Origin: an uncultured Candidatus Melainabacteria bacterium
Lineage (GTDB): Bacteria; Cyanobacteriota; Vampirovibrionia; Gastranaerophilales; Gastranaerophilaceae
Length of the DNA: 64,000 bases
Assembly (NCBI GenBank): GCA_949902595.1
Contig: CATLDC010000010.1
Coordinates: forward strand, 1 to 64,000
Reading direction: 5' to 3'
The notes under the pieces were generated by a model. That model made no database searches. It was not told the DNA's origin and saw only the letters and a program-made list of their open reading frames with translations. Of the stretch, positions 25,132 through 26,974 are shown piece after piece; the stretch's first letter is position 1, and each line of letters starts with the position of its first letter. Position numbers and translations under genes: made by a program.

Positions 25132-26727
25132 TTATTTCTTAAGCAGTTTTACAAGCTCCGCATTCTGCGACTTAATTGTTTCAACCTCTTTCTTAAGCTC
25201 GTCAATTGTTTTCTGCTGCTCATCAATCGTGTTTTTCATTTTTGCGTATCTAAAATCAAGCTCTTTGACAGCATTGATCAGGGCAAAAAACATATCTTCC
25301 ATTCTGATTTTTAAATATCCGTCCTCACCTTTTGTCACGGCGTTTGGAAATACTTTTTGCAAATCCTGAGCCATCACGCCTACATGAGGTGTACTTGTTT
25401 CATCATTTTTATAGGTATAGTGATATAAATCAAGTTTTTTAAGCGCATCTAGTCCCGCAACGAACTTTTCTCCAACATTTTTCAGCCGCCTGTCAGAGTT
25501 TGTGCCGTCAAGAGCACGCACGAATCCGGTCGCAGGCAAGCCTCCAACATATATAGTACCATGCATTGAAGAACCACGCCAACGCTTACCATCTGATTCA
25601 GCATAAGCAAACATTGAGAGACCTTTGCTTCCATCACCTTCACGAACATAAAATTTAGTGCCCCCGTTTCTGTTTAATAATACGTGGCCATCTACGACTA
25701 AATTTCCTCGTATATACACCGTATCTTGAGTCCTGCCCAGGGCAATCTGACTATTCTGGGTAGTTACAGCGCCCTGTCCTATTGCAGTAGAACCATCATG
25801 CAAAGCTCTTGCTGTTTGCCCGATTGCTATACTGTCCTCTTTTTGAGCAACAGCGTTTCTGCCGATTGCAATAGAATCTTTGTGTTGAGCCTTTGCACTC
25901 TTACCAAGCGCAATGCTACCTCCTGTTCCAGATTTATTTCCGGTTGCTTCCGCGCTCGAACCGATTGCAATTCCTTCCTGACCTGTGGCAGTAGTATTCT
26001 CACCCAAAGCAACACTGTTGTCACCACCCGCAGAAGCACCTGCACCTAATGCAATGGCATGGCTACCGGTTGCCTGGGTTGCTTTTCCGCCTACGTCGTT
26101 ATATGCCCCACCGAGTGCAACGCTCCCGCTACCGTTTGCTTTGGAGTGTGGACCGATGGCGACAGCTTGTGGTTCGGAGGCATTTGCGTGGTAGCCGGCT
26201 GCTAAGGGAGCGTAGGCGGCGCCTGTTTCAGCGTATGCTCCGATTGCAATACCATAGGAACCTACTGAGACGGCGCTTTGGCCGATTGCAGTAGCGTACA
26301 AATTCTTTGTGACTGCATTTTGGCCGATTGTTACGCTCTCGTCACAGGTGATGGTTTGGTTACCTCCGATTGCTACTGAATGTGCTGGGATTGTAGCGTT
26401 TGAGATACCTACTCTTCCTGACGGGTCTGCTGTTACTTGCATAACTTCGTCGCCTTTGCCGAAGGTGAGTTGGGAGTTGGAGTTTCCGCAGTCGATGTAG
26501 AGGCGGGTGTTTACTCCTGTTGGGACTTTTGAGGCTCCGATTACTGCTGTAACGTCTTTGCCTGCCATGTTAAAGGCTGCGTTGCCTTTGGTATCGATAA
26601 AGACCCAAGGGTTTGAGTTTGATGATGAGGCGCTTTTGCTCACAATAGGTGCGGTTGCGGCTGCGATTATAGACATAATGAGCAACACTATCATCATTTC
26701 CATCAATGAAAATCCTGTATGTTTCAC
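25132..26727 (-). CDS. chimeric prepilin / YadA-head / peptidase S74 chaperone protein
   Basis: A 531-residue protein with an unusual domain order. Residues 1-30 are a class III prepilin leader and helix (MKHTG, then FSLMEMMIVLLIMSIIAAA, Glu at mature position 5). About 110-355 consists of YadA/Hep-Hag head repeats of roughly 14-16 residues with S-x-A-I-G or S-V-A-L-G cores. About 355-405 is a beta linker. Residues 411-531 are an S74 intramolecular chaperone: S411-D-R-R-L-K416 gives the Ser/Lys dyad at the spacing known from phage endosialidases, followed by HVGVMAQDLQKVFPNAV and a C-terminal heptad coiled coil. YadA heads and S74 domains both act as trimers, whereas prepilins are usually built into filaments. 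I infer a trimeric surface adhesin anchored or exported by a type IV pilus-like system. Confidence 0.88.
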   Translation of the reverse strand: MKHTGFSLMEMMIVLLIMSIIAAATAPIVSKSASSSNSNPWVFIDTKGNAAFNMAGKDVTAVIGASKVPTGVNTRLYIDCGNSNSQLTFGKGDEVMQVTADPSGRVGISNATIPAHSVAIGGNQTITCDESVTIGQNAVTKNLYATAIGQSAVSVGSYGIAIGAYAETGAAYAPLAAGYHANASEPQAVAIGPHSKANGSGSVALGGAYNDVGGKATQATGSHAIALGAGASAGGDNSVALGENTTATGQEGIAIGSSAEATGNKSGTGGSIALGKSAKAQHKDSIAIGRNAVAQKEDSIAIGQTARALHDGSTAIGQGAVTTQNSQIALGRTQDTVYIRGNLVVDGHVLLNRNGGTKFYVREGDGSKGLSMFAYAESDGKRWRGSSMHGTIYVGGLPATGFVRALDGTNSDRRLKNVGEKFVAGLDALKKLDLYHYTYKNDETSTPHVGVMAQDLQKVFPNAVTKGEDGYLKIRMEDMFFALINAVKELDFRYAKMKNTIDEQQKTIDELKKEVETIKSQNAELVKLLKK

Positions 26728-26765
26728 GTTCTCTTCCTTTCTATTCCTATTTTGAAGAGCATTGA

Positions 26766-26793
26766 ATGTAACACAATACTCATTGTGTTACAT
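26766..26793. repeat. 28-bp perfect palindrome, left copy
   Basis: ATGTAACACAAT, loop ACTC, ATTGTGTTACAT. It is the exact reverse complement of the copy at 26947-26974. It lies 39 nt upstream of the prepilin-YadA-S74 start. Apart from the two palindromes and a promoter, the 359-nt gap holds nothing I can support. Confidence 0.75.
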
Positions 26794-26919
26794 GTGCTAC
26801 GCACGTAGACCGTCTTGCCCTTATTGTATCTGGCCTACAGGCTTTGCGCTTTTTGGCTGGTTTTGGGACTACAAGTTGGATTTTTGTAAAAATTGCTAAA
26901 AATGAAACACTGGATATAG

Positions 26920-26948
26920 TTGCATTACAACCAGCATGATGGTATAAT
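26920..26948 (+). promoter_or_regulatory. sigma-70 promoter of lpxI-lpxB with overlapping operator
   Basis: TTGCAT (26920-26925), 17-bp spacer, perfect TATAAT (26943-26948). The palindrome at 26947-26974 begins inside the -10 box and covers the start site, the classic place for a repressor. The transcript would have a leader of about 130 nt before lpxI. Confidence 0.7.
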
Positions 26949-26974
26949 GTAACACAATGAGTATTGTGTTACAT
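26947..26974. repeat. 28-bp perfect palindrome, right copy
   Basis: ATGTAACACAAT, loop GAGT, ATTGTGTTACAT: a 12-bp stem on both strands and the reverse complement of the copy at 26766-26793. Confidence 0.75.

Follow-up and report, generated by a model that had tools for sequence, protein, structure and literature searches.

Heads of the YadA type are left-handed beta-rolls able to bind collagen, and in Moraxella a pilin coding segment is inverted by the DEDD invertase Piv. Promoter segments lying between inverted sites in front of surface genes are known from the FimB/FimE, RecV and Mpi systems, and with Mpi or RecV there are many such switches per genome. On the protein side, modular type IV pilins carry a display module grafted on the pilin, and the pair of pilin and S74 domain (IPR012902 + IPR030392) is listed among them, with S74 called a predicted peptidase (PMC8179133). 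Because the pair already stands in that list, the architecture alone is not new, and the idea that the pair is novel is weakened. S74 domains are otherwise found in the chaperones of endosialidases and tail fibres and in the MYRF ICA, where the Ser/Lys pair is a proven dyad (PMC3742443 for MYRF and endosialidases).

The locus examined here lies in a window of 64,000 nucleotides from a non-photosynthetic gut lineage of Cyanobacteriota, and it combines known kinds (modular pilin; promoter inversion) and is not itself a new kind. As in the modular pilins (PMC8179133), a prepilin leader is followed by S74; here, however, a YadA-type head stands between the two, the gene belongs to a large paralogous family, and control appears to be exerted by promoter inversion. 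Head repeats and a predicted beta-roll are shared with the type Vc trimeric autotransporters BpaC, BoaA and YadA, but the type V secretion signal and the C-terminal barrel are missing, their place being taken by S74 and a coiled coil. The fold, the SDxRxK dyad, the following coiled coil and the position C-terminal to a trimeric beta-structure are those of known S74 domains, whereas the carrier here is a bacterial pilin-anchored surface protein. The predicted switch resembles those of FimB/FimE, RecV and Mpi in its layout, in its candidate short tyrosine recombinases of FimB/RecV type and in its many copies per genome; it departs from them in its near-perfect 13-4-13 palindromic sites, its locus-specific cores, its about 29 pairs and its placement mostly before pilin-like families. 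With Moraxella Piv it has in common that DNA inversion would change pilin expression, but here it is the promoter that is inverted, and tyrosine recombinases are the candidates. The most striking feature, an invertible promoter before a multigene family, is absent from the first-pass annotation, and no prior report of a switched S74-pilin family was found in the open-licence PMC papers searched.

The explanation that best fits the whole, and that we favor with moderate confidence, is a phase-variable family of modular pilin adhesins controlled by promoter inversion. The class III prepilin leader and hydrophobic helix would direct the chain to Sec and hold it in the inner membrane; prepilin peptidase is expected to cleave after Gly5 of VKHTG, and the type IV filament machinery would then take up the anchored, modular pilin-like protein. 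Its YadA-type head would trimerize, assisted by the S74 chaperone and coiled coil at the C-terminus, the S74 part would cut itself off before Ser411 and release residues 411-531, and a type IV filament would carry the head, most likely at its tip, presumably for adhesion. Transcription of each of the at least 11 paralogues would be set by a site-specific DNA switch, in which a promoter-bearing segment, flanked by two palindromic sites ~40 bp ahead of the start codon, is turned around by a short 180-aa tyrosine recombinase of the kind encoded in this genome. The gene and its protein modules lie on the minus strand.

25132-26727, minus strand: gene of the pilin, YadA-head and S74 protein (531 aa, GTG start)
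26733-26740, minus strand: Shine-Dalgarno sequence AAAGGAAG, within the 39 bp of leader that separate the start codon from the site (from the sequence)
26713-26727, minus strand: prepilin leader VKHTG, with G before FSLME and Glu+5 (N_methyl and TIGR02532, both above cut-off)
26644-26712, minus strand: hydrophobic N-terminal pilin helix, residues 6-28 (model helix 8-24 and sequence)
25717-26379, minus strand: YadA-type beta-roll head, residues ~117-337 (Pfam YadA_head, model, Foldseek)
25333-25497, minus strand: Peptidase_S74 or intramolecular chaperone domain, residues 411-465 (Pfam, profile search, model, Foldseek)
25495-25497, minus strand: Ser411 codon, the expected nucleophile and cleavage point (sequence, alignment)
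25480-25482, minus strand: Lys416 codon of the dyad (sequence, alignment)
25135-25302, minus strand: C-terminal long helix or coiled coil, residues 476-531 (structure models)

The Pfam family N_methyl matches residues 2-25 with 26.1 bits against a cut-off of 21.2, and NCBIfam TIGR02532 calls the leader independently and above its own cut-off; together with the G-F junction, Glu+5 and the hydrophobic helix, these matches bear out the prepilin leader first read from the letters. YadA_head reaches 96.9 bits in seven stretches, above its curated Pfam cut-off. The full-length AlphaFold model has a helix at each end, the C-terminal one being long, and a beta-roll between them. Its head is good and its S74 part poor: in this monomer model pLDDT exceeds 90 over most of residues ~220-335 of the beta-roll, while residues 30-115 form a low-confidence region. 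Foldseek matches the modeled head to the trimeric autotransporter heads BpaC, BoaA and YadA. Of the "YadA-type collagen-like head repeats" named in the first-pass annotation, the YadA_head repeats thus stand and the collagen-like character does not, the predicted fold being a beta-roll instead. The annotation was right that no barrel is present, as neither a YadA anchor nor a C-terminal 4-strand barrel was matched in the 531-aa protein by Pfam even at relaxed E, and S74 plus helix form the C-terminus where an autotransporter would have its barrel. Its list of modules holds as well, although the C-terminal coiled coil (~476-530) and the upstream element at 26767-26973 had been overlooked. No pilin-body family was matched after the N-terminal helix in Pfam or NCBIfam. 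The window copy also lacks, at 26630-26645, four residues (a KMSK repeat) that follow the pilin helix in all other aligned copies.

Nine S74 genes above cut-off were found in the genome, and those S74-pilin genes whose 5' ends are present share one architecture, with near-identical N-termini and variable heads. Four further 5' ends run off contigs (C14, C18, C20, C24) and two 3' parts begin at contig ends; at least 11 S74-pilin copies are counted in all. One paralogue (L043:5539-7079, C4) carries a frameshift in its head region. The same domain order of pilin leader, head and S74, for which a search in Gastranaerophilales had been proposed, was found in relatives across the genus and in other families of the order, with S74 in all 17 scanned relatives and YadA_head and N_methyl in 16/17 each. 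The recurrence of N_methyl in 16 of the 17, and a prepilin peptidase encoded in the genome, point to a true prepilin leader as opposed to an ordinary signal anchor. Four PilB/PilT-type ATPases above cut-off are encoded alongside the peptidase.

Incorporation into a pilus is the step on which the strongest competing explanation turns. It holds that the leader is an anchor only, and that the product is an inner-membrane-anchored, pseudopilin-like surface protein outside the pilus, either a pseudopilin fibre or a tethered trimer. No globular pilin module is recognizable after the helix, and the head is long and rigid; a trimeric head of ~220 residues would not easily be accommodated in a helical filament other than at its tip, and the paralogues, at least 11 in number, would have to serve as minor or tip subunits. 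Against this stand the conservation of the leader with its Glu+5, the encoded prepilin peptidase and T4P-type ATPases, and the precedent of modular pilins with bulky extra tip domains (PMC8179133). We consider this explanation rather unlikely, and pilin-anchored display of the head plausible.

The S74 domain matches PF13884 over residues 411-465 with 56.3 bits (cut-off 22), and the C-terminus of the protein also matches phage tail fibres in PHROGs. Profile searches returned the MYRF ICA (7dc3, E 7e-10) the phage tail fibre 8jov (1e-9) and 3gud (9e-6). While the domain is poorly resolved in the full-length model, a domain-only monomer model built from 61 sequences reached a pLDDT of 89.6, and its best PDB matches in Foldseek were the MYRF ICA (7dc3, E 6e-5, TM 0.58) and next the phage chaperone 3gw6, which upholds the S74 fold proposed initially. 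Ser411 and Lys416, the dyad that had been picked out at the same time, are present within SDRRLK. Across 61 aligned S74 domains from several families of the order the Ser is kept in 60/61 and the Lys in 61/61; since most of these rows were gathered by a pattern requiring the Lys, the Ser count is the fairer test of conservation. The sole exception is a paralogue (L046:6501-8087, C9) in which Cys replaces the Ser (ACDRRLK).

That paralogue would suit the explanation that S74 is only a trimerizing chaperone or stays attached, the Ser/Lys pair being kept for structure and nothing being released. We judge this unlikely, given the retention of the pair across several families (60/61 and 61/61, most rows being Lys-selected) and the proven role of the same pair as a dyad in MYRF and endosialidases (PMC3742443). 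That the S74 domain releases itself is plausible, although it may also fold without cutting.

Searching the 5' region of the S74-pilin gene against the genome revealed a ~207-bp repeat bounded by palindromes. In the window this element spans 26767-26973, directly upstream of the 531-aa gene, and has the following parts.

26767-26792, no strand assigned: gene-proximal recombination site TGTAACACAATACTCATTGTGTTACA (pattern search, pairing)
26948-26973, no strand assigned: distal recombination site with core GAGT, an exact reverse complement of its proximal partner (pattern search, pairing)
26793-26947, no strand assigned: invertible 155-bp segment, with end B (GTAGCACA) toward the gene and promoter end A away from it (pairing, comparison)
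26920-26948, plus strand: sigma70-type promoter TTGCAT-17 bp-TATAAT in the invertible segment (from the sequence)

Elements before the S74-pilin copies measure ~207-304 bp and are bounded by inverted 26-bp palindromes of the form TGTAACACAAT-nnnn-ATTGTGTTACA. The pattern TGTAACACAATNNNNATTGTGTTACA occurs 63 times in the genome, as compared to 0 times for the reversed control, and 29 site pairs could be resolved. The arms hardly vary, and the 4-nt core is variable (ACTC, ACCT, ACCC, ACAT, CCCT, ATGC). Within pairs the cores are complementary in 28 of 29 cases, whereas 100000 permutations averaged 6.4 and never exceeded 17. When the 900 bp preceding the S74-pilins of the order were searched without bias, inverted repeats of at least 22 bp were found at 16/58 genes, as compared to 2/278 control windows from the same loci and 0/580 shuffles. 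A detectable inverted repeat thus lies upstream of only some S74-pilins of the order, and some of the repeats use other arms (TGCAAC... or ATTTACATAAT...). The gene-proximal site mostly lies 11-48 bp before the start codon.

The -10 box of this promoter overlaps the distal site by one base, its last T (26948) also opening the site, and the A-end consensus, TTGCnT-17-TATAAT, overlaps its site in the same way. TATAAT abuts the site at the A end in 18/29 elements and at the other end in 0/29. A promoter at the B end was considered and rejected, as it amounts to a weak TACAAT in the window copy and is absent from other copies. Because the promoter at 26920-26948 fires away from the gene, the window copy would be OFF as assembled; orientation here means the consensus assembly state, all genomes being MAGs or drafts. 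Of the 11 S74-pilin 5' ends in the genome, that on C14 (L051) has the promoter facing it and would be ON; the other ten have the non-promoter end next to them. Several OFF copies have their promoter directed at the 3' end of a convergent gene (presumably dapF, recA, ruvC and clpB, as read from the ORFs), and this speaks for the pilin as its intended target. Across the order, L214, L195, L232, L208 and L253 look ON, and L194, L197, L241, L242, L215, L221, L246 and L251 look OFF.

The strongest evidence for inversion comes from sequence comparison of two S74-pilin loci in a second genome, CALVAO01, namely L214 and L242. Their distal flanks are collinear (434 bp, 96.8%), as are leader and gene start (257 bp, 99.6%), and from site to site they match over 438 bp in the inverted direction only (96.6%). 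L241 agrees with L242, its interior matching that of L214 at 98.4% inverted and 48% not inverted. In the source genome, C14 and C18 likewise have an inverted interior (94.3%) and a collinear leader (98.7%). The boundaries of inversion coincide with the sites, and both orientations are thereby demonstrated between the same boundaries, the compared loci being paralogous and not one locus in two cells.

Further differences were seen in a sister species (G023), whose flanks are ~95% identical to those of the source genome. Its L117 presents the opposite end of the element to the same flank as in L061, with 28 bp of interior visible. In L118, as compared to L067, both cores of one element have changed together, from ATGT/ACAT to ATAC/GTAT. 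At L112 and L114 the flank is orthologous but the element next to it is not the same, a difference that could partly be misassembly because G023 is a fragmented MAG. In L120 and L119, as compared to L053 and L072 (G000), the flanks of two loci are joined at the site, which may represent large rearrangements between sites, or misassembly.

The element might instead be a MITE-like mobile repeat standing before genes by chance, its orientation being the direction of insertion. Its ~29 copies genome-wide, with interiors 75-92% alike, and the many contigs that end in an element would be expected of such a repeat. We nevertheless regard this as very improbable: flanks are collinear and only the segment from site to site is inverted, the conserved arms enclose a 4-nt core that differs between pairs and matches within them, the gene-proximal site mostly keeps within 11-48 bp of the start codon, and other species have recombinase genes enclosed by the same site pairs. 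None of the elements was found to contain a transposase. A MITE or REPIN reading of the repeat was rejected on the matched cores, perfect arms, promoter position and site-to-site inversion. A chance fusion of a pilin leader to a phage tail fibre or to the remnant of a prophage can be dismissed as extremely improbable, since the S74 domain and some PHROG tail-fibre matches are outweighed by flanking housekeeping genes (which we take to be lpxI/lpxB and an amino-acid carrier) and by intact paralogues with the same module order at unrelated loci and across the order.

For the promoter inversion that we favor, the candidate enzymes are short tyrosine recombinases. Four of ~180 aa are encoded in the source genome and compete for the role. 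Serine recombinases have a 2-bp overlap, and the shared 4-nt core appears to fit the overlap of a tyrosine recombinase better. A serine invertase was ruled out as the switch enzyme, no PF00239 (serine resolvase) gene being present in the genome. In G025 an intact short tyrosine recombinase gene (L263, C44, 2558-3103) lies inside an inverted pair of the same sites, and in G008 one with internal stops (L142, C21, 2370-2735) lies inside an inverted site pair. This linkage in other species ties the enzyme family to the sites and suggests the assignment, and the recombinase itself may be invertible. Presence of recombinases as compared to presence of sites does not discriminate, because the recombinases occur in most of the genus, including species without the exact sites. 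The sites would also make a clean natural case in which to ask how a tyrosine recombinase could keep ~29 switches distinct through a core of 4 bases.

A second pilin-like family (MKKGFTLAELLIVLGITGV..., ~490 aa), in which N_methyl is the sole recognized domain, was found behind the same kind of element, with cores ACCT/AGGT. Its members are L058 (C1:41000-52000), L045:3986-5476, L052, L055, L056, L057, L065, L072 and L073. The promoter end faces the gene in L058 and away from it in the other copies with visible elements.

A wider reading, which we offer only tentatively and hold to be somewhat doubtful, is a genome-wide antigenic variation system in these non-photosynthetic gut Cyanobacteriota. 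It would comprise ~29 core-typed invertons of one site family, with essentially one ON member per pilin family, in the source genome one S74-pilin and one pilin of the second family. Recombination at matching cores, or gene conversion, would occasionally reshuffle adhesin genes and switches, and the S74-chaperoned trimeric heads would be carried on type IV filaments. Such reshuffling is suggested by the differing elements behind orthologous flanks in G023. Three modules of usually separate machines, the type IV pilus, the type V adhesin and the phage tail fibre, are joined here, apparently under the control of a switch, in a gut lineage that is abundant and has been little studied. Provided that the switches operate as interpreted here, these commensals would resemble Bacteroides and C. 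difficile in varying their surface.

Several other arrangements of the sites were observed. A shorter class of element, of 194 bp with cores ATGC/ATGT, occurs at L062:4830-5023, L063, L067 and L047:2478-2671; in L062 and L063 a Shine-Dalgarno-like stretch and an ATG lie just inside one site, and these elements perhaps switch translation starts or leaders. Elements also precede the genes of large uncharacterized proteins, one of which has an EF hand (L071:3005-4747, L053/L054, L060, L066 and L064), which are possible further switch targets. At L113/L202 (G023:C137, sites 1217 and 1398) the two sites have the core GAGT on the same strand and form a direct, not an inverted, pair, and this locus may be locked or able to delete. 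At L148 (G007:C6:38500-45026, sites 3842 and 4234) the element lies between two divergent pilin genes, where one inversion could swap which gene is expressed.
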